In this document: in pieces, positions 64 through 60,599 of the stretch
How the letters are laid out: every line of letters starts with the position of its first letter
Position numbering within the stretch: position 1 is the stretch's first letter
The notes under the pieces: model-generated
Seen by the model: the letters and a program-made list of their open reading frames with translations, nothing else
Told to the model about the DNA's origin: nothing
Database searches by the model: none
NCBI RefSeq assembly: GCF_014078545.1
Contig: NZ_MU078712.1
Location: 115,049-179,048 of the forward strand
DNA from: Nitrosopumilus sp. b1
GTDB taxonomy: Archaea; Thermoproteota; Nitrososphaeria; Nitrososphaerales; Nitrosopumilaceae
Direction: 5' to 3'
Length of the DNA: 64,000 bases
Made by a program: the position numbers and the translations under genes

Positions 64-1214
64 TTACGAAAATCCCCTCTTGGAGTTGGTTTTTTCTCAG
101 TGGGCTCTTTGTACTTTTTACCAATCTCATCAACTCGAATGTTTAACTTCTCAAGTAATGTCTTGTTAAGGCCTCCACCATACACATCAACTCGTGCAGC
201 AATTGCAGCCTTTGCAGCTACTGCACGTGCTATCTTTCCCCGCTGCCATCTTGGTGCTGCATGAACTAGTGCATGCTGAAATAACAATCCGTGTTTTGGT
301 GGTTGGGAACCTGTCTTTAATGATCTAAATAGTGCCTTTTCTGCGCCAAGAACTTGAATTGTACTGGCAGGCATTGATGCAAGTTTCTTTAATCCACCTG
401 CTCTGGCAAGAATTCTTGCCCCCACTGCAGTTCCAAGAATTGCAGCAAAATTAGGAGCAATCTCATTCATTTGAATTTCAATATGTGATTCTAACTTTTT
501 TCTTAAATCATGTAATTCAACAATTTGTCTTGCCAATGACTGCACAATCACTAGATTTTCATCTGAAATATCTCCTCCTCTACTTTTTTCACTTACTAAA
601 AGCAGCATCTCAACTTTTGATTCTGGAAATCCTGCATCGACAAATACATTCTTTGTTAGTTGAGTTCTTTTACCTGCTAAAACAATCTGTGCATATCCAT
701 ATACACTATCAATAATGTTGTCTAATTCGGGAAAATGTAGCCCATACCACTCTCTTAATCTAGAACTAACTCCATTTCCAATCTTATCAATGTCATCTAA
801 TGTGTTAATAGCCTGAATGATGTGCAAGTCTGGACTTTCTGATACTTCGGTAACTTTTGATGAGGATAACTGAATAGCAAAGTCACGAAGTTTTACCATT
901 GCATCGTTTTGATCTTTTGCAAAACCTGCTGTTACGAGAATTTCAGGCTTTGAAGCATGAATTTCATTTACTCCATCCTCACTCATTAATTGAGCATCAA
1001 TAGAATTTTTTTTCAAAATTGATAACAATGCTTCATCACTTACAGAGATCACACCGTCAAGATTTGCAACATAATCAATCAGATCATCAATTCCAGCTTC
1101 TCCTTTTCGTACTGAAATGTACTCTTTTGATGGATTTGAGAATGGAAATGATTTCTTACATTTTTTCTCCTCGAATACTGCGATTCCCATCTCTGTCAAA
1201 ACGACTGTCTGCAT
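1..1214 (-). CDS. nop5: Nop5 (Nop56/58 family) box C/D RNP core protein, 3' end cut by window edge
   Basis: The reading frame starts at the ATG complementary to 1212-1214 and stays open to the window edge (404 codons seen). It has a long N-terminal domain, a central coiled coil and a NOP domain at about residues 250-370, with the family motif GAEKALFRSLKTG near residue 290 and GLLFQHALVHAAPRWQRGK after it. Nop5 holds the C/D guide RNA together with L7Ae and fibrillarin during 2'-O-methylation of RNA. The visible tail, from residue 371, is rich in Arg, Gly, Asp and Ser and carries DRGESRG twice. Fibrillarin is not in the window; it may lie beyond the left edge. The gene is divergent from pyrD. 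The family call is firm; the true C-terminus is unknown. Confidence 0.93.
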   Translation of the reverse strand, partial: MQTVVLTEMGIAVFEEKKCKKSFPFSNPSKEYISVRKGEAGIDDLIDYVANLDGVISVSDEALLSILKKNSIDAQLMSEDGVNEIHASKPEILVTAGFAKDQNDAMVKLRDFAIQLSSSKVTEVSESPDLHIIQAINTLDDIDKIGNGVSSRLREWYGLHFPELDNIIDSVYGYAQIVLAGKRTQLTKNVFVDAGFPESKVEMLLLVSEKSRGGDISDENLVIVQSLARQIVELHDLRKKLESHIEIQMNEIAPNFAAILGTAVGARILARAGGLKKLASMPASTIQVLGAEKALFRSLKTGSQPPKHGLLFQHALVHAAPRWQRGKIARAVAAKAAIAARVDVYGGGLNKTLLEKLNIRVDEIGKKYKEPTEKKPTPRGDFRNDRGESRGNRDFRRSDRGESR

Positions 1215-1217
1215 AAC

Positions 1218-1274
1218 TAGTTGATTTCAAATCATTCCATTAAAAAAGGTACCAGCAAAGACTAGAATCAACTA
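1218..1274. promoter_or_regulatory. Divergent nop5/pyrD promoter region with a 9-bp inverted repeat
   Basis: TAGTTGATT at 1218-1226 is perfectly repeated in inverse as AATCAACTA at 1266-1274. A TATA-like stretch, attatat at 1274-1280, lies 28 nt before the pyrD GTG. On the other strand a T/A-rich element near 1240-1250 is about 30 nt before the nop5 ATG. The inverted repeat therefore sits next to both promoters and could be an operator; no regulator is identified. Confidence 0.4.
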
Positions 1275-1304
1275 TTATATTCCAAAGTCAAACTAGATTT
1301 AAAA

Positions 1305-2216
1305 GTGAAGCCTTCTCTTGCGACCTCCTTGGGACCTATCAAATTAGAGCGTCCAATAATGCTCGCTTCTGGAATTTTAGGAATTTCACTAGATGTCTTT
1401 AAGAGAATTCATCAATCAGGGGCTGGTGCTGTAGTTACAAAGTCACTGAGCAAAGAACCCTGGGAGGGATATCCAAATCCTACGATATTTAGCGTAAAAG
1501 GAGGTGGATGGATTAACGCAGTTGGTCTCTCAAACCCTGGAGCAACTAACTTTGCAAAGATGATTTCTCAAAACAAGGACGTTCCAATTATTGTCAGTCT
1601 TGTTGGCTCTGTTGGGGAAGACTTTGAATTCATGGTATCTCAATTTGAAAACTGTAACGTTACTGCATATGAGCTAAATCTATCCTGCCCCCATGTAGCA
1701 AAAGTGGGTCTAGAAGTGGGTGATGATCCTGAACTTGTTAAAAAAATTGTAAAGACTGTCAAAAAATCTACTGATGTGCCTGTTATAGCTAAGGTTGGAT
1801 TGGGAACTACTCATTATCTTAATACTGTTGGAGCATGCATTGATTCGGGAATTGACGCAATAACTGCAATTAACACTTTACGTGCCATGGCAATTGATGT
1901 TGAAACACAACGACCAATTCTCAGCAACAAAATAGGAGGATTATCTGGCACTCCGATCAAACCCGTCGCACTTCGATGTGTTTTTGAAATATCATCCAAA
2001 TATGATATTCCAATAATTGGATGCGGAGGAATATCTACATGGGAAGACGCTATAGAATTCTTTTTAGCTGGAGCATCCGCAATTCAAATTGGCAGTGCGA
2101 TTGGGGACAACTGGCTTGAAATATTTAATGAAATCAATGTTGGTATAGAAAAATACATGGAAAGAAAAGGCATTACAAAAATTGAGGAGATGATAGGTCG
2201 TGCAAAGAAATCATAA
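1305..2216 (+). CDS. pyrD: Dihydroorotate dehydrogenase, catalytic subunit (class 1B-like)
   Basis: This 303-residue enzyme oxidises dihydroorotate to orotate in pyrimidine synthesis. It begins at a GTG 28 nt after a TATA-like element. It has an N-terminal KSLSKEPWEG segment, the ELNLSCPH loop whose Cys128 is the expected catalytic base of class 1 enzymes, and the C-terminal phosphate/FMN-binding strands GCGGISTWEDA and GASAIQIGSAI. A PyrK subunit follows with a 17-nt overlap, which is the arrangement of the 1B heteromer that passes electrons through FAD and a 2Fe-2S centre. Family and partner agree, so the call is firm; the acceptor (NAD+ or another carrier) is not shown by sequence. Confidence 0.95.
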   Translation: MKPSLATSLGPIKLERPIMLASGILGISLDVFKRIHQSGAGAVVTKSLSKEPWEGYPNPTIFSVKGGGWINAVGLSNPGATNFAKMISQNKDVPIIVSLVGSVGEDFEFMVSQFENCNVTAYELNLSCPHVAKVGLEVGDDPELVKKIVKTVKKSTDVPVIAKVGLGTTHYLNTVGACIDSGIDAITAINTLRAMAIDVETQRPILSNKIGGLSGTPIKPVALRCVFEISSKYDIPIIGCGGISTWEDAIEFFLAGASAIQIGSAIGDNWLEIFNEINVGIEKYMERKGITKIEEMIGRAKKS

Positions 2217-3012
2217 TCATCCTACAATTTGTACTATTGAGAAAGTAATAGATGAAACACCTACAGTTAGAACTTTGGTATTTTCTGATGATGTAATGTC
2301 TAATGTTTTACCTGGGCAATTTGCGATGGTGTGGATTCCTGGAATTAACGAATTGCCAATGAGTGTCATGATTTCACAAGATAAGGGAAAAGCTGCATTT
2401 ACTGTCCGTAGACATGGTCCTGCCTCTACTGGTCTATACAATATTGGCCCAGGCCAACAAATTGGTGTGAGGGGACCCTATGGAAATTCTTTTGATATTA
2501 AGTCAGGAAAATTATTACTTGTAGGTGGAGGTACTGGACTAGTTCCTTTGATGCGATTAATCACTCATCTTAAACCAACAGATGATGTCACTGTTGTAAT
2601 GGGAGCAAAAACAAAAGATGAAGTTTTCTTTGAAGACTTGGCAAATCATCTTCTGCAAAAAAATAATCACAAAGTTATCGTCACAACTGATGATGGAAGC
2701 TATGGTACCAAGGGATTCGTCACCGATGTAGTCGAAAAATTATGTAAAGAAGTAAAGTTTGATGGAATTTACGCCTGTGGGCCAGAAAAAATGATGTACA
2801 AGACAGTACAAATTGCAAATTCCAATAATCTCTTTGTACAGGCAAGTCTTGAGCGAATGATGAAATGCGGTGTAGGAATATGCGGTAGCTGCTGTGTGGG
2901 TGAAAACCTAGTGTGCAAGGACGGAACGATCTTTGATGGCGATTATCTCTCTTCAAATCCTGAATTTGGTCATTTTTACAGAAACAAGGCTGGAATTTTG
3001 GAAAATTACTAA
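2200..3012 (+). CDS. pyrK: Dihydroorotate dehydrogenase electron-transfer subunit
   Basis: This 270-residue flavoprotein of the ferredoxin-NADP reductase superfamily should carry electrons from PyrD to a soluble acceptor. It shows an N-terminal beta-barrel FAD domain with RRHGPASTG, a nucleotide-binding glycine motif GGGTGLVPLM at about residues 109-118, and a C-terminal 2Fe-2S cysteine set at C223, C228, C231 and C239. The GTG start lies inside the end of pyrD in another frame (17-nt overlap), implying translational coupling. Length and motif order match PyrK of 1B enzymes. Confidence 0.93.
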   Translation: MQRNHNHPTICTIEKVIDETPTVRTLVFSDDVMSNVLPGQFAMVWIPGINELPMSVMISQDKGKAAFTVRRHGPASTGLYNIGPGQQIGVRGPYGNSFDIKSGKLLLVGGGTGLVPLMRLITHLKPTDDVTVVMGAKTKDEVFFEDLANHLLQKNNHKVIVTTDDGSYGTKGFVTDVVEKLCKEVKFDGIYACGPEKMMYKTVQIANSNNLFVQASLERMMKCGVGICGSCCVGENLVCKDGTIFDGDYLSSNPEFGHFYRNKAGILENY

Positions 3013-3063
3013 GACTGGCTAGGAAGGTTTAAAATAAATTAAGAAATTATTGCCCACAAGGGA

Positions 3064-4791
3064 ATGGCACATCCAAAGATAGTATTGACAGCAGATCGTA
3101 CTCTCATGTCGCCATATCGACACCTTTCTTTAGCTACATTTTTTGGCTGTGCTCCTGCACTAGACCCACATCGTGATAAGAAGAGCTTTTGGTATAAAAT
3201 TCTCAAAAACCAAGTGACTCCAAAAATTTTGTTTGATTTTATCTGTAATCCAATAGAACACACAAACGGTGTTGCAAATTATGCTCCGTACGGACTACGA
3301 AAAGTTGAGGCAGGACTGCTACGTGATGGCTTTAGACGAGAAGACGTAGTTGTAGCACATCCTGATCATATTGAGAAATTCATCGGACCTGAAACCCAAG
3401 TAGTTGGAACATACGAAATGGATCCACTTGGAATGGGACCTGTTACTATGACCTTTACTTATGGACGAAAGCAGATGTCATACGATGAATTTTACAACAG
3501 AGATTTACACATGAGAATTAATGCCGCAAAGAAGAAGAATGGAAGCAATGCCAAAGTTATTGCTGGTGCTTCTGGAACTTGGCAATACAACTATGATCCT
3601 GAAAAAATCGAGGAGTATGGACTATATGCAATTTTAGAAGGAGAACTTGGAGGTATAGCCCCTGAAATTGATGGACATGCAGGACGCTTTTTCAATTATT
3701 TGATTAATGGTGACTTTGAAAACATGAATCCATTTAGAAAACGAAGTGATTTCAAAGTAAACATCAAAGAATTCCAACGTGAAGGTCGTACACTACATGG
3801 AAGATTTGTAAACTTTTGGGACAGACCAGACCTTGAAGATATTCCAGATATTGTAGAACCAAGTATGCATGGAATGGTTGAAGTAATGAGGGGATGTGGA
3901 CGTGGATGCAAGTTTTGTGATGTTACACTTAGAGCATTAAGATACTATCCACCTGAAAAAGTCAAAAAAGAGATTGAGATAAACCTCAAAAAAGGTGGAG
4001 AAAAATCTGCATGGATACATAGTGATGACATCTTTGTTTATGGAATGGATCCAAAGACAAGCAAAGGCATGGAGCCAAACAGAGAGGCATTAGAGGATCT
4101 GTTTACTGCAATAATGTCTACTGGCGTTGAACACACTAACCCAACTCATGGAACTCTTGCAGGTGCAATTGCTGATGAAAAACTAATTCCAAACATCTCA
4201 AAAATTATTCGCTCAGGACCAGAGAACTTGATTGGTGTTCAATGTGGATTTGAGACTGGCAGTCTACGATTAATTGAAAAATATGCTGATAGAAAACTTG
4301 CTCCATACCGTCCAGAAGAATGGCACTGGGTAGTAAAAGAAGGAGTAAAAACTCTTAATGAACACTATTGGGTTCCAGCATTTACCTTGATTATGGGTCT
4401 AGATAATGATGAGACCCCAGAAGATTCATGGGAGACAATTCAGATAATTAACGAATTAGAAAAAGAACAACCTGATTCCATGTTTACTACAACACCTTTG
4501 ACATTTGTCCCAATTGGCTTGCTAGAAAAATCTGAATTCTTTAACATTGGAAACGAGATGGACCCGGCACAACTTGGTGTCATGTACAAGACTTGGCAAC
4601 ACAACTTCAAGTATGGTATTCAAAAATTCATGACAAAGACTGGAGGTCAAAAAGGTCCAAAGAAATACTTCTTTAACATGATTGCACGATCCTTGGGAGG
4701 CGTTCCATTGGGCGCAATGGAGAGATATGCCAGACGAAAGAGCCGTGAACACGAGCGAGTAATTGAGAAGATCAAAGCCAATTATTGGTAA
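3064..4791 (+). CDS. Radical SAM protein with N-terminal cobalamin-binding-like domain
   Basis: A 575-residue protein with the radical SAM 4Fe-4S cluster motif CGRGCKFC (C278, C282, C285). About 265 residues precede the motif and contain a region that looks like the Rossmann-type B12-binding half of B12-radical SAM enzymes, though no DxHxxG signature is visible. The region after the cluster has the expected TIM-barrel features, for example GVQCGFETGS and AFTLIMGLDNDE. The substrate is unknown and no pathway neighbour helps: pyrK lies 51 nt upstream and S30e downstream. Radical SAM membership is secure; a methyltransferase or methylthiotransferase role is only a possibility. Confidence 0.85.
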   Translation: MAHPKIVLTADRTLMSPYRHLSLATFFGCAPALDPHRDKKSFWYKILKNQVTPKILFDFICNPIEHTNGVANYAPYGLRKVEAGLLRDGFRREDVVVAHPDHIEKFIGPETQVVGTYEMDPLGMGPVTMTFTYGRKQMSYDEFYNRDLHMRINAAKKKNGSNAKVIAGASGTWQYNYDPEKIEEYGLYAILEGELGGIAPEIDGHAGRFFNYLINGDFENMNPFRKRSDFKVNIKEFQREGRTLHGRFVNFWDRPDLEDIPDIVEPSMHGMVEVMRGCGRGCKFCDVTLRALRYYPPEKVKKEIEINLKKGGEKSAWIHSDDIFVYGMDPKTSKGMEPNREALEDLFTAIMSTGVEHTNPTHGTLAGAIADEKLIPNISKIIRSGPENLIGVQCGFETGSLRLIEKYADRKLAPYRPEEWHWVVKEGVKTLNEHYWVPAFTLIMGLDNDETPEDSWETIQIINELEKEQPDSMFTTTPLTFVPIGLLEKSEFFNIGNEMDPAQLGVMYKTWQHNFKYGIQKFMTKTGGQKGPKKYFFNMIARSLGGVPLGAMERYARRKSREHERVIEKIKANYW

Positions 4792-51630: not shown

Positions 51631-52668
51631 CTACATTTTGGGGTCCATGCCCTTTGCAATTCGTAGCGCATCTACTAGCCCATCAGCATAACCTATGCTA
51701 AGAATTGCCACATCATCTTTTCCTTGCTCCAAAAATTTCTCTGCATCTTGCACATACAGCTCTGCATTCTCTAGTATCTCACAATATTCCTTTGAGTCTT
51801 TGTAATGCGGGGCAATCTCTTTAATTGCTTCTCTAACCATTGGAACATATTTCTCTAGCATTTGAGTTGGAATCTTTTTAATTTTCTCAGAGTTACTAAT
51901 GGGTTCATCCAGACATTTTGCCAAAACTTTCAATGCATCAGACTCTGTAAAGTGCAAATTGCCAGGAATAATTATGGTGTGTGGCGGCTTGCCAAAATCT
52001 ACCTTTTGAATCTTGCTAATGCTTCCACAAATAATTTTTTGAGTTTTAAATCCAATTCTTGATGCAACAATTACAAATGTTGATTTGCTAATTACTTTTC
52101 TTATCTGCTCTGCTTCTGTCTCTAGCAAATCGTGTAATGCATCATTTGGCTTTAAAAAAAAGTCCTTGTCTTGGTTGTACTCTAAAAGCAAAATTGTGTG
52201 ATTTCCTTCAATCAAATTTTTGTATGTGACATAATACGGAGTTGTTAGTGATTTTGCTTCGCTCATAATTGTTGCAATTCTTCCGACTTTGTAATAGTGC
52301 AATCCACACTCCCCAACCATAGATGTTATGGATGACGCAGCATGAATGGAATAAGTTTTAATTTTTTCATTTATTGCGCGAGTTCTTAGCTCTATATGGG
52401 TAGTTGCAATGTATGGATCGCCATATGAAATTAATGAAACTTTTTTCTTTTTAGAATTTTTTAAAATCTCTTTTCCGTCTTCTACCATCCATCGTTTAGC
52501 AATCTTAAACTCGCCCTTGATCTTTTTCTTAAACTTTGATAGCTCTACTTTACTTATTGGGCTAGTAAATGCCTCAAGGTAGACAATATCTGATTTTTTT
52601 AATACATCAAGTGTTTCATTGGATAATGAACTCAGTCCAGAAACTCCGATGCCAATAAACCACAGCAT
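51631..52668 (-). CDS. dphB: Diphthine synthase fused to a DUF357 domain
   Basis: 345 residues. The first 255 or so are the SAM-dependent methyltransferase that makes diphthine on elongation factor 2: LWFIGIGVSGLSSLS, SLISYGDPYIATTHIEL and HAASSITSMVGECGLHYYK. The last 75 residues (from about 268, QMLEKYVPMVREAIK) match DUF357, a helical domain that is usually encoded alone next to archaeal FAD synthase genes. Here it is fused to dphB and sits 42 nt from the FAD synthase gene. It overlaps lysK by one base. Confidence 0.88.
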   Translation of the reverse strand: MLWFIGIGVSGLSSLSNETLDVLKKSDIVYLEAFTSPISKVELSKFKKKIKGEFKIAKRWMVEDGKEILKNSKKKKVSLISYGDPYIATTHIELRTRAINEKIKTYSIHAASSITSMVGECGLHYYKVGRIATIMSEAKSLTTPYYVTYKNLIEGNHTILLLEYNQDKDFFLKPNDALHDLLETEAEQIRKVISKSTFVIVASRIGFKTQKIICGSISKIQKVDFGKPPHTIIIPGNLHFTESDALKVLAKCLDEPISNSEKIKKIPTQMLEKYVPMVREAIKEIAPHYKDSKEYCEILENAELYVQDAEKFLEQGKDDVAILSIGYADGLVDALRIAKGMDPKM

Positions 52669-53795
52669 TATTGGTTTTTTCTATCGTGCAGTCTTTTTAA
52701 ATGATGCAAGGTCTTCTTGAGGACTTCGATTCCTCTTAGGTACTCATCAATTGACACCTTTTCATCAATGGTGTGGGCCTGATGGGGATCGCCTGGTCCA
52801 TAAGTGACTACTGGAATCTTTAGTCTGTTTCCTATGACGTTCATGTCACCTGTACCTGTTTTTCTAATCAAGGTTGGTCTTGCATGCTCCACCTCCATTA
52901 CTCCCAAGGTAAATGCTCGAACCAGTGGTGAGTTGTGCGGTGCCTCAAATGGCTCTGTCTCATCGAGAATAGAGTAGAATGCTTCCACCTCTCTTTTCCT
53001 TGATACCTCTTGAACTGATTTTGCAATCTTTTCTTCAACCATCTTGCAATTCATGTCGACTGGAATTCTAATATCCAAAATGGTTTCACATTCTTTTGGA
53101 GTTACGTTGTGGCTTGTACCGCCTTTGATTTCGGTAATGGTGGCAGTTAGCATCATGCTCTTTTTCTTTCCATCTTGTCCTGCTTCTAGTGCTCTCTTTA
53201 CCTCCTGAGTAAACACAGCTGACTCTTCAATCGCGTTTTTTGCAAGCCATGGGGCACTTGCGTGTGCACTGTCGCCAACATTGATCTTTAGATTAATTGC
53301 CAAACGACCCTTGTATGCAATGGTGACCTGCCTGATTCCACTAGGTTCGCCAAACACAGCATAGTCTAAATCAAGTTCTTGTTGGACTAGGTTTTTGATT
53401 CCTGTTGCGTTTCCTTCCTCATCAACTGCGCCACAAAATATCACTGTTCCATTATTGTTCTGCACCGATGCTGCTGCAAATAACATTGCCATCAATGGGG
53501 CTTTAGCATCAGATGCTCCTCTGCCAAACAGATTGTCTCCTTCTTTTCTAACTTTAATTTTTCCTGGAACTGTATCCATGTGTCCACACAAAAGAATTCT
53601 TGGCGAACCAGATCCCTTCTTTGCAATAATGTTTCCAACCTCATCAATGTGAATGTCTTCAAAACCAAGATCATCACACTTGTCTGCAAGAAATTCCGCA
53701 ACTGGCTTTTCACTTAGGGATGGTGTGTACAATCGTAGAACTTTCTCTAGCATCTTTACTGCAAATCGTGGTGTGACTGTAAACGTGGAATCCAT
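52668..53795 (-). CDS. lysK: [LysW]-lysine/ornithine hydrolase
   Basis: This 375-residue M20-family metallohydrolase releases lysine (or ornithine) from the LysW carrier in the last step of the AAA pathway. Metal ligands are in LCGHMDTVPG (His and Asp), GRGASDAKAPL, and VDEEGNATG (Glu pair). The C-terminal catalytic His is in YGPGDPHQAHTIDE. It follows lysX by 2 nt in the lysW1 unit, which fixes its substrate class. Confidence 0.93.
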   Translation of the reverse strand: MDSTFTVTPRFAVKMLEKVLRLYTPSLSEKPVAEFLADKCDDLGFEDIHIDEVGNIIAKKGSGSPRILLCGHMDTVPGKIKVRKEGDNLFGRGASDAKAPLMAMLFAAASVQNNNGTVIFCGAVDEEGNATGIKNLVQQELDLDYAVFGEPSGIRQVTIAYKGRLAINLKINVGDSAHASAPWLAKNAIEESAVFTQEVKRALEAGQDGKKKSMMLTATITEIKGGTSHNVTPKECETILDIRIPVDMNCKMVEEKIAKSVQEVSRKREVEAFYSILDETEPFEAPHNSPLVRAFTLGVMEVEHARPTLIRKTGTGDMNVIGNRLKIPVVTYGPGDPHQAHTIDEKVSIDEYLRGIEVLKKTLHHLKRLHDRKNQ

Positions 53796-53797
53796 TT

Positions 53798-54646
53798 CTA
53801 TCTTTTAGATTCCAATGCATAATCAATCATCAGTGATGGAATATCTACTTCACAGACTCTAACTGTGTTTTTGTATTCTGTAGTGTTGTTGACTTCGTGA
53901 ACGACCAGTCCTCTATCATCGCTTTCCATTAAATCAACGCCTACGATTTGTCCCTGAACTGCATTTTTAGCTTTAATACAAATATCTTCTAATTCATTGG
54001 TGACCTCGCATTTTTCGGCTCGTCCGCCTAATGCCATGTTTGTCTTCCAATTTCCATCTCCAGAATTTCTATAAATTGCCGCCACTACTTTATCCCCTAC
54101 CATAATTGCTCTAATGTCTCTTGGTGGTCTTTGTACAAACTCTTCTAAATAATGTATTTGATAAATTGGATACATCTTTTCTCTTCCTTCAATGATGCCT
54201 TCTGCAGAATCTTTGTCATTAATTTTTGATATCATTCTTCCCCAACTTCCAACTGTTGGTTTGATGACTTTGGGATATCCTTCTTTTTCAAGTGCTTCAA
54301 TTGCAGATTCTTTTGAGAATGCAACAGTAGCGTAAGGTGTTGGAACTCCGAACTTTCTTAGCAACATATGAGTATACAATTTGTTTCCTGCAAAAATTCC
54401 TGTATTGAGACAGTTGATTACGTTGACTCCCATTCCTTCAAGTGCTGCAGTAGAGTGAACATTTCTGTAGTAACTTACGCACCTCTGGATAACTGTTCCA
54501 AAACCATCTCGTTTGCTGTCTAATTGTAATGAAAGTTTCTTACAATCAAACATTTCTAGATTAACGTTCTTTTTTTTTCCCGCTTCTAGTAACGCTTTTT
54601 CTTCCCATCGGATGGTATCGTAAAGAACAGTAATGTCAGGGGTCAC
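53798..54646 (-). CDS. lysX: Alpha-aminoadipate/glutamate-LysW ligase, LysX
   Basis: 282 residues from the GTG at 54646, which shares 4 nt with the lysW1 stop (GTGA); an in-frame TTG at 54655 is less likely. It is an ATP-grasp ligase (RimK-like) that joins the amino group of an amino acid to the LysW C-terminal Glu. Features: KEGYPKVIKPTVGSWGRMIS, EEFVQRPPRDIRAIMVGD and the substrate-side GGRAEKCEVT. The second ligase (59578-60432) reads GADPELCEIT there, which may separate lysine from arginine substrates. Called LysX because homocitrate synthase and lysK are its operon partners. Confidence 0.85.
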   Translation of the reverse strand: MTPDITVLYDTIRWEEKALLEAGKKKNVNLEMFDCKKLSLQLDSKRDGFGTVIQRCVSYYRNVHSTAALEGMGVNVINCLNTGIFAGNKLYTHMLLRKFGVPTPYATVAFSKESAIEALEKEGYPKVIKPTVGSWGRMISKINDKDSAEGIIEGREKMYPIYQIHYLEEFVQRPPRDIRAIMVGDKVVAAIYRNSGDGNWKTNMALGGRAEKCEVTNELEDICIKAKNAVQGQIVGVDLMESDDRGLVVHEVNNTTEYKNTVRVCEVDIPSLMIDYALESKR

Positions 54647-54810
54647 TGCCCCCAATCCTCGCCTACCGTTTGGGCGGGCTTTAGATCAAAACCTCCTGAT
54701 GATTTAACTAATTCATAACTTGCACCACATTCTGGGCAGGTTACAATCTCTCCTTCTACTGCATCGCTTGGGATTGAAATATTTGCGTCACATTCATCAC
54801 AACTTGCCAA
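54643..54810 (-). CDS. lysW: LysW-type carrier protein 1, ending in Gln
   Basis: A 55-residue acidic zinc protein with CDEC and CPEC pairs, then GASYELVK and the tail VGEDWGQ. LysW holds the amino acid on its C-terminal Glu (usually EDWGE), but the last codon here is CAG, giving Gln. The TTG start is preceded by a G-rich ggaag, and the gene lies 23 nt after homocitrate synthase and shares its stop with the lysX start. It is too short for most ORF lists. The family call is firm; activity as a carrier needs the Gln explained. Confidence 0.9.
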   Translation of the reverse strand: MASCDECDANISIPSDAVEGEIVTCPECGASYELVKSSGGFDLKPAQTVGEDWGQ

Positions 54811-54833: not shown

Positions 54834-56000
54834 TTATTTGTCATTAATTATCTTTCTTTCCAGCCTGTCTTCTAGTGGGATCTCAATCAAGTCCCCCATT
54901 CGAAGGTTTTTCAAGCCTGCAGCCACATCTTTGGCTCCTTGGTCGTCTTTTTCCAAGCCCAACAATGACATTAGATAGGCAGCACCAGTCTTTCCTGCCA
55001 GTTCTCCAAAAACAATTCTCCTTCTATTTCCAACTATTCTTGGCGGGATTGGCTCGTATGCAGCAGGGTTTCTTAGAATAGCTGCAAGATGAGTTCCTGC
55101 TTTATGCTTGTATGCTGAGGTTCCTACGATTGGTTTTGAATCATAGGGTGGAATTGAAGTATAGTCTTCAATCAATCTAGAAAGATCCTGTAGCATGTCT
55201 AGCCTCAAATCATTTGGTGATTTGTAAAGATAAGTTAAAGCCACTGCTACTTCGGCAAGTGCTGGAATGCCTGTCCTTTCACCAATTCCATCAATAGTAG
55301 TGTGAATCTGATCCACTCCTGCATCACATGCTGCAAATGCATTTGCTAATGCAAAGCCGATATCATTGTGTACATGAGCATCTAGCGGTGTATCTATTTC
55401 ATCTCGAACTTTTTTAACAAAATTATACATTCCAATTGGTCTCATAATTCCAACTGTATCAGGCAAGCTAATTCTATCTACACCTGCATCCGATATTGCT
55501 CGGCACACTTCAAGCAAAAATTTAGGATCTGCTCTACTACCATCCTCCACTGTGAATCTAATTTTAAGACCATGTGACTTTGCATACTCTACGGTTTCCA
55601 CTGCACGACGTAGTGCCTCTTCTCTTGAAATCCTTAACTTGTCTTTAAGATGAATATCTGAAATGCCTAGATAACCTGCAACCCATTTTGCATCACAGCT
55701 AAGGGACACATCAATGTCCTCTTTTAACGCTCTACCATGAGAAACAATATCTGCCTTTAACCCTTGTTTGATAATTGTTTTAGTTGCTTCTTTATGATCT
55801 TGTGATACTACTGGTGAGATTTCAATCTGGTCTACACCAAAATAGTCAAGCATCCATGCAATCTGAATTCTTTGTTTGTTTGTAAAAGATACTCCTGGAT
55901 GTTGTTCCCCTTCACGAAGGGTGCTGTCAAGAATTCGTATCTTCTTTGGATTCTTTGAATATGCATTGTACTGGTTTGCATAGTGATTCGGATCGTTCAT
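54834..56000 (-). CDS. Homocitrate synthase-type alpha-isopropylmalate synthase family enzyme
   Basis: A 388-residue Claisen-condensing enzyme. N-terminal LDSTLREGEQHPGVSF, metal-binding LDAHVHNDIGFALAN with HTTIDGIGERTGI, and the C-terminal helices, without the long LeuA leucine-binding domain, fit homocitrate synthase (2-oxoglutarate plus acetyl-CoA), the first step of lysine synthesis. Its position directly ahead of lysW1 and lysX supports this. It is the first gene of the second unit; a TATA-like gtttatattt near 56030 lies about 30 nt upstream. Confidence 0.87.
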   Translation of the reverse strand: MNDPNHYANQYNAYSKNPKKIRILDSTLREGEQHPGVSFTNKQRIQIAWMLDYFGVDQIEISPVVSQDHKEATKTIIKQGLKADIVSHGRALKEDIDVSLSCDAKWVAGYLGISDIHLKDKLRISREEALRRAVETVEYAKSHGLKIRFTVEDGSRADPKFLLEVCRAISDAGVDRISLPDTVGIMRPIGMYNFVKKVRDEIDTPLDAHVHNDIGFALANAFAACDAGVDQIHTTIDGIGERTGIPALAEVAVALTYLYKSPNDLRLDMLQDLSRLIEDYTSIPPYDSKPIVGTSAYKHKAGTHLAAILRNPAAYEPIPPRIVGNRRRIVFGELAGKTGAAYLMSLLGLEKDDQGAKDVAAGLKNLRMGDLIEIPLEDRLERKIINDK

Positions 56001-56115: not shown

Positions 56116-56535
56116 TTAGCTTATTGTTTTGAGAATAATTACAGAGTTGCTATCCACCACGCCAGGAACTTTTCTTATTGCATCAATACTACTGTTTATT
56201 TCTGTGATGTTTGGTGCACTCATGATGACAATAATGTCGTACTGTCCTGTAATCTCATAGACTGTTTTTACTCCGTCTAGTTTTGTTAGTTTTGTAGACA
56301 CCTTTGATGTATCCATCCCTGAATCCACTGAAACTAGAATAATTGCTTTTGTTGCATTCTCTTCTCCTACTTCAATGGTGAATTTTTTAATCGTGCCGCT
56401 ATCGACTAGATTTTTTACTCTGCGTCTTACTGCCGATTCTGATAACTTTAGTTTTTTTCCAATGTCTACAAATGATTCTCTAGAATCGTTTCGGAGGGCT
56501 TCGATTATTTTTTCATCGATTTTATCTCTAAACAT
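56116..56535 (-). CDS. Lrp/AsnC-family transcriptional regulator (LysM-like)
   Basis: 139 residues: helix-turn-helix at about 5-55 (DSRESFVDIGKKLKLSES, then AVRRRVKNLVDSG) and a RAM effector domain at about 60-139. In Sulfolobus a similar regulator (LysM) controls the LysW-type lysine operon. Here it ends the argG-lysJ unit, overlaps lysJ by 8 nt and precedes the homocitrate synthase promoter, so control of lysine genes by amino acids is likely. Confidence 0.9.
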   Translation of the reverse strand: MFRDKIDEKIIEALRNDSRESFVDIGKKLKLSESAVRRRVKNLVDSGTIKKFTIEVGEENATKAIILVSVDSGMDTSKVSTKLTKLDGVKTVYEITGQYDIIVIMSAPNITEINSSIDAIRKVPGVVDSNSVIILKTIS

Positions 56536-57709
56536 TACGTCTTTCTTCCTCTCTTGTTAGCAATACATCTAGTGTATCTAAAACTTTTGTAATATCTTCT
56601 TCGGAAATCACAAGAGGGGGTAATAGTCGTAGTATGTTTCTGCCTGAGTAAAGTAGTAAAATTCCTTCCTTGATGCCCTCCATCAAAATGTCTTTTACTT
56701 CAAATTTCAATTCCACTCCAATCATTAGGCCTTTTCCCCTTACTTCTCTGATGATGTCGTGTTTTTCTTGTAGCTTTTTCAAACCGTCAATGAATTTTCC
56801 TCCATTTTTTTCTGCATTTTTTATCAATCCATCTTGTGTAAGTGCATGGATTGTTCCAATACCAGCTGCACAAGAGAGTGGATTTCCTCCAAATGTTGAA
56901 GAATGTTCTCCTTTGCTCATGCACGAAAGAATCTCTGGTTTGACAAGGGTTGCACCCATTGGTACTCCACCTGCAATTCCTTTTGCAAGGCACATAATAT
57001 CTGGTGTTGTATTCCAGTGCTCTGATGCCCACATTCGGCCTGTTCTGCCAAGACCTGCCTGAATTTCGTCAAAAATTAAGAGGATTCCTTTTTCATCACA
57101 CAGCTTGCGTACCTCTTGCAAGAATCCGTCTGGTGCAACATGTATTCCACTTTCTCCTTGGATTGGTTCCATTATAACAAATCCTGTATCATCATTAATT
57201 GTAGAACGTAATTCGTTAATGTCACCAAATGAAGAAAATGATACTTGCTCTACTAGTGGCTCAAACATCTTTCTATATTTTGGATTAAATGTTAGTGATA
57301 ACGCACCCATTGATTTTCCATGGTATGATCCTTTCATTGCAACCATTCCTTTCTTTCCAGTAAATTTTCGCGCAAATTTTATTGCAGCTTCTATTGCTTC
57401 AGCTCCACTGTTGTTGAGATGAACTTGAGACAATCCTTTTGGAGTTTGTTTCATTAATGTTTCAAGAAATTCTTCTCTTGTCTTGTTGTATAGTGAACTA
57501 TGAACTGTAATTATTTTATCTAATTGTGATTTGATTGCATTAACAACTCGTTCATTTCTGTGGCCTACTAGTGCTACACCATAACCTCCCATGCAATCAA
57601 CATACTCTTTTCCGTTTACATCCCAAACGTGGGAACCAAGTCCTTTTTCAATTGTTACTGGAAATCTTTGGTACAGACTTCCCATAAAGTCATCTTCAGT
57701 CATTTTCAA
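56528..57709 (-). CDS. lysJ: [LysW]-aminoadipate/glutamate semialdehyde transaminase
   Basis: 393 residues, class III PLP aminotransferase of the ArgD/LysJ group: LNNSGAEAIEAAIKFAR, IFDEIQAGLGRTG (Asp214), and the PLP Lys243 in LAKGIAGGVPMG. It aminates the semialdehyde held on LysW, with glutamate as donor. Overlaps lysZ by 14 nt and the Lrp gene by 8 nt. Likely acts in both lysine and arginine branches. Confidence 0.93.
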   Translation of the reverse strand: MKMTEDDFMGSLYQRFPVTIEKGLGSHVWDVNGKEYVDCMGGYGVALVGHRNERVVNAIKSQLDKIITVHSSLYNKTREEFLETLMKQTPKGLSQVHLNNSGAEAIEAAIKFARKFTGKKGMVAMKGSYHGKSMGALSLTFNPKYRKMFEPLVEQVSFSSFGDINELRSTINDDTGFVIMEPIQGESGIHVAPDGFLQEVRKLCDEKGILLIFDEIQAGLGRTGRMWASEHWNTTPDIMCLAKGIAGGVPMGATLVKPEILSCMSKGEHSSTFGGNPLSCAAGIGTIHALTQDGLIKNAEKNGGKFIDGLKKLQEKHDIIREVRGKGLMIGVELKFEVKDILMEGIKEGILLLYSGRNILRLLPPLVISEEDITKVLDTLDVLLTREEERRNV

Positions 57710-58499
57710 TTACCGTACAATTGTCATGTGCAATAGCACTTGAGATTGGATTTTCCTTTTGTCCATTTGCAATTAGGGCTTGTTTAACTCCCATATCTAA
57801 TGCTTCTGTTGCAGCAAGAATCTTCTTTTCCATTCCCGGTCCAATCTTTGGACGTATCTCTTTTGCTTCTTGTAGAGATAGTTTTTGAACTAGCTTATCA
57901 TCCATTAGTAATCCATCAACATTGGTGACAAAAAGTACCTTGTCTGATTTTACTTTTCCAGCTACATATGCTGCTGCTCTATCTCCGTCTACATTAAGAA
58001 AGTCGCCTTCTTCACTAATGGCAATCGGTGAAATTACAGGAGTTAACCCTCGCTCTAGCAGGGATTTTATGAAATCTGCATTAATTTCAGTAATCTTTCC
58101 TGTATATCCGCCATCTATTGCCTGTTTTCGACCTTTTTCATTAATGATGAGAAGTTTTTTCTTCCTCTCTGCCTGAATTGTTTTTGCATCAACTCCTGAA
58201 ATTCCAACTGCATTAATTCCATTTTTTTGTAGCATCTGAACAATTGTTTTGTTAATTCGCCCTGACATTACCATTGTAAAAATTTCTGCAGTATCTTTGT
58301 CAGTGTATCTACTTTTGATTCCGCTTGGTGATGTAACAAACTTTGGTTCTTTTCCAAGTTGTTCGCAAACTTTAGTAACTTCTTTTCCACCACCATGTAC
58401 AAGAATCACTCCTTCTTGTTGTGAAATTTTTTTTATATCTTGAATTGTACTTGGATGTAAATTATCAACTACACTCCCACCAATCTTTATTGTAATCAT
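57696..58499 (-). CDS. lysZ: [LysW]-aminoadipate/glutamate kinase
   Basis: 267 residues of the amino-acid kinase family (ArgB-like). N-terminal TIKIGGSVVDNL, VLVHGGGKEV, the central DGDRAAAYVAGKVK and the end KKILAATEALDMGVKQAL fit LysZ. It phosphorylates the side-chain carboxylate of the amino acid bound to LysW. Starts 3 nt after lysY and overlaps lysJ by 14 nt. Confidence 0.93.
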   Translation of the reverse strand: MITIKIGGSVVDNLHPSTIQDIKKISQQEGVILVHGGGKEVTKVCEQLGKEPKFVTSPSGIKSRYTDKDTAEIFTMVMSGRINKTIVQMLQKNGINAVGISGVDAKTIQAERKKKLLIINEKGRKQAIDGGYTGKITEINADFIKSLLERGLTPVISPIAISEEGDFLNVDGDRAAAYVAGKVKSDKVLFVTNVDGLLMDDKLVQKLSLQEAKEIRPKIGPGMEKKILAATEALDMGVKQALIANGQKENPISSAIAHDNCTVIEND

Positions 58500-58502
58500 T
58501 TC

Positions 58503-59549
58503 TTACACTGGTGTTAATGGAGTGTATCTTAAACCATCCATCTCATCAAAGCCTGCCATTACATTCATGTTTTGAATTGCAGAGCCTGCTGCGCCTTTCA
58601 TTAGATTGTCTGATGCTGAGATGGCAATTAGTCTATTGTTGTCTTCATCTAAATCAAATCCGATATCACAAAAGTTTGAACCTACTAGGAATTTTGGATC
58701 TGGGAATTTGTAAAGACCTTTTTTATCACGAATTAATCTAACAAATCTTTCTTCACCATATGCTTGACGATACAATTTCCATAATTCTTTCTCTTCTATC
58801 TCTTTTGTCATGAATGTGTGGTTAGTACAAAGTATTCCTCTGACTACATCCACTGCATGTGGACTCATCGATACACGAATTTTCTTTCCTGCAATCTCAC
58901 TAAGCTCTTGCTCAATTTCTCCTGTATGTCTGTGCTTTGCTGGTTTGTATGGTCTGATAACTCCTGCACGCATTGCATGACTGGTTCCTGCACCTGCTCC
59001 TGCACCTGATGAACCAATCTTTGAATCAACTACAATGTGTTCGGTATCGATGATATTGTTCTTGATTAATGGAGCAAGGGCTAGCATTGAAGTTACTGCC
59101 ATGCAACCTGGGCATGATACAAGTTGTGCATTTTTTATCTTCTCTCTGTGTAATTCTGGGACTCCAAATACTGATTTTGAAAGATAGTCTGGATGTGGAT
59201 GTTCCCAACCATACCACTTGCCATAGTCTTCTGGATTGTGCAATCTATAGTCTGCACTAAGGTCGATTATCTTTAGACCTCTGTCATAGAGTGCCTTTAC
59301 AATTTCTGTTGCAGTTCCATGTGGTACTGCAGTAAAGACCAGATCACACTTGTCTGTCATTTTATCATAATCTAGTTCTGAAAATGTTAAATCTGTAAAT
59401 CCTTTCAAACTTGGTTGAACCCTATGAAGATACTCTCCGACATGTTGTCTGGAGGTAACCATTGTGATCTCAACTTTTGGATGGTTTACTAGTAATCGTA
59501 ATGTTTCTCCTCCAACATAACCTGAGGCTCCAACAACTCCTACTTTCAT
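58503..59549 (-). CDS. lysY: [LysW]-aminoadipyl/glutamyl phosphate reductase
   Basis: 348 residues, ArgC-like NADPH-dependent reductase. N-terminal GVVGASGYVGGETLRLL, IDLSADYRL, and the catalytic Cys149 in SCPGCMAVTS. It reduces the acyl phosphate on LysW to semialdehyde. 28 nt after the second ligase gene and 3 nt before lysZ. Length and motifs match the LysW system. Confidence 0.94.
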   Translation of the reverse strand: MKVGVVGASGYVGGETLRLLVNHPKVEITMVTSRQHVGEYLHRVQPSLKGFTDLTFSELDYDKMTDKCDLVFTAVPHGTATEIVKALYDRGLKIIDLSADYRLHNPEDYGKWYGWEHPHPDYLSKSVFGVPELHREKIKNAQLVSCPGCMAVTSMLALAPLIKNNIIDTEHIVVDSKIGSSGAGAGAGTSHAMRAGVIRPYKPAKHRHTGEIEQELSEIAGKKIRVSMSPHAVDVVRGILCTNHTFMTKEIEEKELWKLYRQAYGEERFVRLIRDKKGLYKFPDPKFLVGSNFCDIGFDLDEDNNRLIAISASDNLMKGAAGSAIQNMNVMAGFDEMDGLRYTPLTPV

Positions 59550-59577: not shown

Positions 59578-60432
59578 TTATTTCCTAACGGAGTTTACTG
59601 CAAATTCTATCATTTCTTTTGGAATGTTTCGTTTTGCAACTCTTGATAACCCCTTAAACTCTACTGTATTGTTTACTTCGTGCACTACTAGCCCTTTTTC
59701 TTTGTCCTCCATCATATCTACGCCTAAAATTCCTCCTCCGACGGATTTTGATGCCTTGATTGCCAAGTCTTCGATCTCATTAGTTATTTCACAAAGCTCT
59801 GGATCCGCACCTAAGGCAATATTTGTCTTGAATCCTTCCGACTTTCTGTACATTGCACCTACTGCTTGTTCCCCTACTGTTATTACACGAATGTCTCTTG
59901 GAGGTCTATTAATCATCTCTTGAAGGTAGTAAATTCTATCATGAGGACCATCAGTGAGTTCTCGTATTTCAAAAACTGCATCCATTGTGTCTTTGTCTTT
60001 GAGTGGTATGACTCCCCTTCCCCAACTGCCGATTACCGGCTTTATCACCATCGGAAACCCAATTTTGGAAAGATTTTCTTCTGCTCCTTCTTTTGAGAAT
60101 GAAAAGTATGTTTTTGGAGTTGGGACTTTGTTTTTTGCCAAGCACAAAGTCATAAACATCTTGTTTCCGCAATTTGTCGCAACGCTGAATTTGTTGATAA
60201 CTGGAATGTCTAAAAATTCAAGGCATGATGTAAAATGAAGGCCTCTAAAGTAACTGACACATCTCTCTAGTACTACTTGACCGAAATCATAGTCAGTCTT
60301 CTTACTCTCCGTGTTTAGTTGTGTGATCTTTGCATCTATCATAGATGTGTCATATCCAAGAGATTCTGCCTCCTTTTGGAGCATCTTCTCTTCTGATCTT
60401 AATCGATCAAATACGACACAAATCTTTGACAT
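59578..60432 (-). CDS. argX: Glutamate/aminoadipate-LysW ligase (ArgX-like)
   Basis: 284 residues, a RimK-type ATP-grasp ligase paralogous to LysX. KIGFPMVIKPVIGSWGRGVI is the ATP-grasp loop, QEMINRPPRDIRVITVGEQ the next motif, and GADPELCEIT the substrate-side segment, which differs from GGRAEKCEVT in LysX. It shares one base with lysW2 (TAATG). I call it ArgX because it sits with argG, but the exact division between lysine and arginine is inferred. Confidence 0.85.
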   Translation of the reverse strand: MSKICVVFDRLRSEEKMLQKEAESLGYDTSMIDAKITQLNTESKKTDYDFGQVVLERCVSYFRGLHFTSCLEFLDIPVINKFSVATNCGNKMFMTLCLAKNKVPTPKTYFSFSKEGAEENLSKIGFPMVIKPVIGSWGRGVIPLKDKDTMDAVFEIRELTDGPHDRIYYLQEMINRPPRDIRVITVGEQAVGAMYRKSEGFKTNIALGADPELCEITNEIEDLAIKASKSVGGGILGVDMMEDKEKGLVVHEVNNTVEFKGLSRVAKRNIPKEMIEFAVNSVRK

Positions 60433-60599
60433 TACTCTCCCCAGTCTTCGCCAACACTTTCTGCTTGTTTTAGCTGTACGTTTGAACCTTCTTTCTTTGC
60501 AATCTCAAAGTCAGCACCACAATCAGGGCAGGATACGATCTCTCCTACAGCGGCGTCATCGGGAATGTTTAGATTTGCATCACATTCTGGGCAATTCAT
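60432..60599 (-). CDS. lysW: LysW-type carrier protein 2 (C-terminal EDWGE)
   Basis: A 55-residue acidic carrier: CPEC at 3-6, CPDC at 24-27, GADFEIAKKEG, and the expected tail ESVGEDWGE with the attachment Glu. It lies between argG and argX and shares its last base with the argX start. The standard tail, and its location, suggest it serves arginine and possibly lysine synthesis. It contrasts with LysW1, which ends in Gln. Confidence 0.95.
   Translation of the reverse strand: MNCPECDANLNIPDDAAVGEIVSCPDCGADFEIAKKEGSNVQLKQAESVGEDWGE

Follow-up and report, generated by a model that had tools for sequence, protein, structure and literature searches.

An encoded C-terminal glutamine in the lysine-type LysW of Nitrosopumilaceae: a conserved and recurrent carrier variant that is probably matured by deamidation

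The lysine-type carrier protein LysW of Nitrosopumilus sp. b1 is encoded with a C-terminal glutamine, in the position of the glutamate which is the working residue in all LysW proteins described in the literature covered here. The gene lies in a 64,000-nucleotide stretch of contig NZ_MU078712.1 (positions 115,049 to 179,048 of the forward strand), hereafter denoted the window. The Gln-tailed LysW is a genuine variant of the known carrier, both conserved and recurrent; as encoded it lacks one defining feature, which it most likely regains by deamidation. In the published LysW/ArgW proteins the last residue is Glu, and in a haloarchaeal homologue this residue is essential, since an E54A substitution leads to arginine auxotrophy (PMC10433800). 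A Gln-tailed LysW was not found in the literature searched (LysW together with Thaumarchaeota or with deamidation), the main structural papers lying outside that search; in a metabolic model built for Nitrosopumilus maritimus, both amino acids are taken to be made through LysW, with no remark on the tail in the passages covered (PMC6038301).

The window encodes two LysW proteins (Table 1), and what the earlier note had read from the letters is confirmed: the lysine-cluster copy ends EDWGQ, with CAG before TGA, the other copy has the normal Glu, and both are 55 residues long with matching zinc knuckles (two CxxC pairs in each; 58% pairwise identity). The translated lysine-cluster LysW, read from 54810 to 54643 on the minus strand, is MASCDECDANISIPSDAVEGEIVTCPECGASYELVKSSGGFDLKPAQTVGEDWGQ; the plus strand of the same interval does not code for protein. 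Both copies pass the cut-off of 75 bits of NF041070, the curated NCBIfam model of the archaeal LysW/ArgW carrier, and both miss the equivalog cut-off of TIGR01206 (53.2 bits), the Glu copy scoring 36 and the Gln copy 33.7 bits. The zinc-binding Cys pairs and the EDWG tail are present in the Gln form, as judged from its sequence and its alignment with PDB 3vpb chain E and 3wwl. An encoded C-terminal Glu, a defining feature of LysW/ArgW, is lacking in the lysine LysW of the window, and we therefore place it outside the canonical members, as a variant that functions as LysW does.

Table 1. Positions and supporting evidence for the two lysW genes of the window and the genes grouped with them
Feature	Position in window	Strand	Evidence and remarks
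lysW (lysine-type carrier)	54643..54810	minus	55 aa; TTG start; C-terminus EDWGQ; stop TGA; ORF and translation; NF041070 90.1 bits (cut-off 75); orthologues
C-terminal CAG (Gln) codon replacing the canonical Glu codon	54646..54648	minus	direct reading of the sequence
lysX, ligase for the lysine carrier	53798..54646	minus	TIGR02144 317 bits (cut-off 275.6); alignment to 3vpd/1uc8
lysK-type M20 hydrolase ([LysW]-lysine hydrolase)	52668..53795	minus	TIGR01902 282 bits (cut-off 163.1)
Homocitrate synthase-like gene (LeuA/CimA/LysS superfamily), upstream of lysW	54834..56000	minus	profile matches and context
lysW/argW (arginine-type carrier)	60432..60599	minus	55 aa; ATG start; C-terminus EDWGE; GAG then TAA; NF041070 92.6 bits
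argX, ligase for the arginine carrier	59578..60432	minus	profile match and motif
argC/lysY-type reductase	58503..59549	minus	one copy in cluster; TIGR01850 418 bits
argB/lysZ, [LysW]-aminoadipate/[LysW]-glutamate kinase	57696..58499	minus	one copy in cluster; NF010662 311.7 bits (cut-off 194)
argD/lysJ aminotransferase	56528..57703	minus	one copy in cluster; TIGR00707 429 bits (cut-off 410)

The gene for the Gln form is placed between a homocitrate synthase-like gene and lysX-lysK, the genes with which the earlier note had grouped it. The assignments of lysX and lysK stand, each passing its curated cut-off; the best matches of the synthase are to 2-isopropylmalate and homocitrate synthase models, and it passes the curated cut-off neither of these nor of the citramalate model, so that its substrate rests on context. 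The arginine-type lysW is grouped with argG, argX, argC/lysY, argB/lysZ and argD/lysJ, followed by a LysM-type regulator; the single argC/lysY reductase probably serves both carriers. LysX and ArgX are both RimK-family alpha-L-glutamate ligases (TIGR00768), and a ligase bearing GSWGR, the motif which recognises the LysW tail (PMC10433800), adjoins lysW together with LysK. The window LysX carries the Asn-Thr substrate motif (EYKNT), like Sulfolobus LysX, whilst ArgX carries Gly-Leu (EFKGL), near the Gly-Phe of Sulfolobus ArgX (motifs from PMC10433800). By its gene context and the Asn-Thr motif of its ligase, the Gln LysW is the lysine carrier.

LysW tails were detected in 190 of the 200 genomes searched from the family of the window, the Nitrosopumilaceae. 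Among distinct LysW-ligase pairs of this family, the lysine-type LysW ends in Gln in 104 of 107, with the codon CAG, and the arginine-type LysW ends in Glu in 80 of 81; the three lysine-type exceptions (G142, L094 and L100) fall together in a single clade when their ligases are placed on a tree. Another genome of the window's own genus has the Gln tail as well. A sequencing error or a one-genome oddity is excluded by the Gln in this congener and by the 104 Nitrosopumilaceae pairs, which come from independent assemblies. The comparison with thaumarchaeal LysW proteins which the earlier note had proposed thus found close relatives to be nearly all Gln, where Glu throughout would have spoken against the reading, and the feature, treated there as a peculiarity of this genome, is instead an old trait of a whole clade.

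Within the class, Gln tails are found in the Nitrosopumilaceae and two further families, f2 and f3 (the latter comprising Nitrososphaeraceae-like genomes), and in none of the other families sampled. The carriers of the other families of the order end in Glu, on both copies where two are present. Archaeal amoA was found in 10 of 10 genomes tested from these three families and in 0 of 6 other genomes tested, so that we take the three families to be ammonia oxidisers. The tie between the Gln tail and ammonia oxidation is not strict, since one amoA-bearing f2 genome (G255) has Glu on both carriers; with Gln also found in f32, f37, f55 and f58, a trait strictly of ammonia oxidisers is rejected. The f3 genera differ among themselves: both carriers end in Gln in g25, g28, g46 and g48; the states are swapped in g30 and g36 (L212 and L231), with Glu on the lysine LysW and Gln on the arginine LysW; and three closed g24 genomes (G238, G243 and G246) have a single LysW with a Gln end whilst retaining LysX and ArgX, the latter confirmed by genome search for G238 and G243. 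Genus g41 has LysX only, with one Gln carrier. One genome of the Nitrosopumilaceae (G023) has lost the lysine LysW, keeping LysX, ArgX and a sole carrier ending in Glu.

Beyond the class, genuine lysW operons with a Gln-tailed carrier were found in f32 (all six g91 genomes, and two of the five examined from g118), f37 and f58. A Gln LysW lies beside a ligase in an f55 genome (G529) whose sister in the same genus, G494, has Glu. The Gln carrier is the sole LysW of the genome in most of these cases, for example in f37 g97 and f32 g91; the f58 genome G505 has a second LysW, which ends in Glu. In such other Thermoproteota, with a sole LysW ending in Gln, the Gln arose independently.

The last residue was compared over 186 LysW proteins, sampled by profile and not by tail pattern (one further match was not a LysW and was left out). 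It is Glu in 122 and Gln in 64, and no other residue occurs. Such a strict limit is expected of a site that must become a gamma-carboxylate; decay or relaxation is disfavoured, since it would let in Lys, Asp, Ala, Gly and Val, each one base away from the Glu codons. On the ligase tree we count at least 13 switches between Glu and Gln, including gains in f32, f37 and f55, beyond the ammonia oxidisers. Over all LysX/ArgX columns and 10 supported independent pairs, no ligase residue was found to track Gln versus Glu; the GSWGR motif and the same conserved columns accompany carriers of both kinds, and the same ligases pair with Glu carriers in close relatives (G529 versus G494, and the G142/L094/L100 clade). 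With ligases that stay the same across the switch, the residue presented to them is probably always Glu, which would have the Gln converted first.

The reading we favour, with some confidence, is that the working LysW is made as a Gln pro-carrier and deamidated to Glu after translation, with LysK as the likeliest enzyme; both the deamidation and the part of LysK are proposed from the comparisons given here. In this scheme the C-terminal Gln of newly made LysW would be deamidated to Glu once per molecule, and LysX would join alpha-aminoadipate to the newly formed gamma-carboxyl. The shared LysZ, LysY and LysJ would then work on the loaded carrier, and LysK would cut lysine off, giving back the Glu form for more rounds. 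LysK would also remove the amide, much as Dop both frees Pup from its targets and deamidates PupQ. Deamidation before loading, in the manner of Pup, was one of three options raised in the earlier note and is the best supported of them, although we infer the conversion itself rather than having proof of it.

LysK hydrolyses the gamma-glutamyl amide by which lysine is held on LysW. In a C-terminal Gln this bond recurs with ammonia in place of lysine, which is what makes LysK the leading candidate, although its part in the step is overall less likely than not. In the operons compared, no gene additional to LysK was seen in the Gln operons of ammonia oxidisers; together with the repeated origin of the trait, this argues that the enzyme is probably one already present. 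A LysK relative was found in 25 of 25 genomes tested, every Gln genome tested included, and genomes of the Nitrosopumilaceae and of f3 have no second one. Genomes with Glu carriers throughout have LysK too, so that finding it does not tell the two states apart, and in the Gln genome of f55 (G529) the nearest relative is distant (33% identity) and lies away from the lysW locus. A Dop/PafA homologue as the deamidase is rejected, as PF03136 was absent from the 14 genomes searched, that of the window included, in a search which detected its positive control. Possible substitutes for LysK in this step are LysX, acting on the amide with ATP, and another amidase. A weak point against deamidation is that, if the Glu form works at once, reversion should be easy, but it is seldom seen: the Gln codon shows one change over the 107 Nitrosopumilaceae sequences, where transversions at several neighbouring sites are likewise few.

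Among the alternatives, the one that survives best, whilst still improbable in our judgement, dispenses with a dedicated step. Slow non-enzymatic deamidation, or Glu placed at CAG through incompletely amidated Glu-tRNA(Gln), would supply some Glu-ended carrier, and recycling would make it enough. Archaea make Gln-tRNA(Gln) by way of Glu-tRNA(Gln), the carrier acts catalytically, and no new gene is visible in the repeated origins of the trait, all of which fit; however, an essential pathway would be poorly served by such leakage, and selection should favour a one-base return to GAG, whereas Gln persists family-wide.

We consider it slightly less probable again that the Gln is used as it is and that a Glu form never exists, the amino acid being attached to another group (the C-terminal alpha-carboxyl, in RimK-like fashion) or the side-chain amide being activated. 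The RimK-family membership of LysX and ArgX and the survival of the amide in whole lineages agree with this, as does the attack of the PupQ amide oxygen on ATP that has been proposed for Dop (PMC8599861). Against it, the carrier of one and the same ligase lineage can change between Glu and Gln with no tracking change in the ligase residues or in GSWGR, two linkages would face the shared downstream enzymes within one cell, and carriers of the Glu form are known to be gamma-linked (PMC10433800).

That the Gln serves as an address code, by which the ligases would tell the lysine carrier from the arginine carrier, is very unlikely. The Nitrosopumilaceae rule for the two carrier types holds well and is what such a code would give, but elsewhere genera have Gln on both carriers, swapped states, or one common carrier of either kind; no ligase residue tracks the tail, and two-carrier families elsewhere in the order have Glu on both. 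The second option of the earlier note, that Gln changes which ligase uses the lysine-cluster carrier, accordingly finds no support, given the swapped states of g30 and g36, the double Gln of g25, g28, g46 and g48, and the single carrier which serves LysX and ArgX in g24 (Gln) and in G023 (Glu).

We give marginally less weight still to the base being held at the DNA level by overlapping translation signals, Gln versus Glu being otherwise neutral. In the window (54643-54660, minus strand) the GTG start of lysX overlaps the CAG-TGA end of lysW by four bases (GTGA), and in the Nitrosopumilaceae the sequence suggests that a ribosome-binding sequence for lysX lies inside the region coding for the lysW tail, in the GEDWG codons. 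The Glu codon at -5 is GAG in 107 of 107 lysine-type genes of the family, neither CAA nor GAA is used as their last codon, and the GGAGAG-TAATG of the arginine type resembles a ribosome-binding site built from Gly-Glu codons. The overlap may thus help to hold the base in the Nitrosopumilaceae. As an explanation of the trait in general it fails, since other lineages differ in codon, stop and spacing: in f2, f3, f32 and f37, Gln also occurs with CAA, with TAA or TAG stops and with no overlap. A CAGTGA overlap artefact as a general cause is rejected on these differences between lineages, and neutrality would in any case still need the Gln form to become usable.

Finally, that the Gln form is a non-loaded decoy (the third option) or a decayed gene is the least likely reading of all. 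The haloarchaeal E54A result makes an unloadable form conceivable, but the Gln form is strongly conserved, and no residue other than Glu or Gln is seen at the site. A decoy is refuted for those genomes, complete ones among them, that have an otherwise intact pathway and no other LysW (the closed g24 genomes of f3, with f37 g97 and f32 g91).

The Gln-tailed LysW shares with the LysW/ArgW carriers (Thermus LysW with Glu54, Sulfolobus and Thermococcus LysW, haloarchaeal ArgW) its size, two CxxC pairs, EDWG tail, GSWGR ligase neighbour and kind of operon. It differs from them in encoding Gln, so that the substrate-bearing gamma-carboxyl would be missing until deamidation. Like Pup, LysW is a small carrier, with C-terminal Gln in some species and Glu in others, which forms an isopeptide through its gamma-carboxyl. 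Deamidation of PupQ and cleavage of the isopeptide are both the work of Dop (PMC8599861), and the proposed likeness is that of a single enzyme for isopeptide hydrolysis and deamidation, with LysK the candidate here. The proteins are unrelated, however, no homologue of the PF03136 family is present in the 14 genomes searched, and LysW serves biosynthesis, not protein degradation. A further likeness is to RimK and ribosomal protein S6, in that LysX and ArgX are ATP-grasp ligases acting on a protein C-terminus; RimK, in contrast, adds glutamate chains to a Glu tail, whereas LysW receives one amino acid, which is modified and then released. More tentatively, a LysK with two roles, deamidating the Gln pro-carrier and releasing the finished amino acid, might have evolved in parallel to Dop, within a biosynthetic pathway unrelated to it, and ammonia-oxidising archaea could possibly control their lysine and arginine synthesis at this point.

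Ammonia-oxidising archaea count among the most abundant marine archaea. If the favoured reading is true, their lysine synthesis, and in some lineages that of arginine too, depends on a maturation step undescribed in the open literature searched, and LysW is a second protein carrier, after Pup, to mature by deamidation of a C-terminal Gln, with a testable enzyme indicated. For annotators, lysW genes ending in Gln are not to be dismissed as defective.

Several minor observations were made alongside. The lysine-cluster LysW of the window has a TTG start (54808-54810, minus strand), where most orthologues seen have ATG. In two genomes of genus g16 (G015 and G033; loci L226 and L228) a second LysW also ends in Gln and is isolated beside unrelated genes, with argX elsewhere in the genome. 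The LysW tails at L277 and L278 (f33 and f45) read EDYGE, not EDWGE. In G023 a GC-rich low-complexity repeat (L233, about 730-3207) lies between the synthase gene and lysX. L039, labelled Nitrososphaeraceae, has a Nitrosopumilaceae-type LysW and LysX inside, and is probably a mislabelled or mis-binned assembly.
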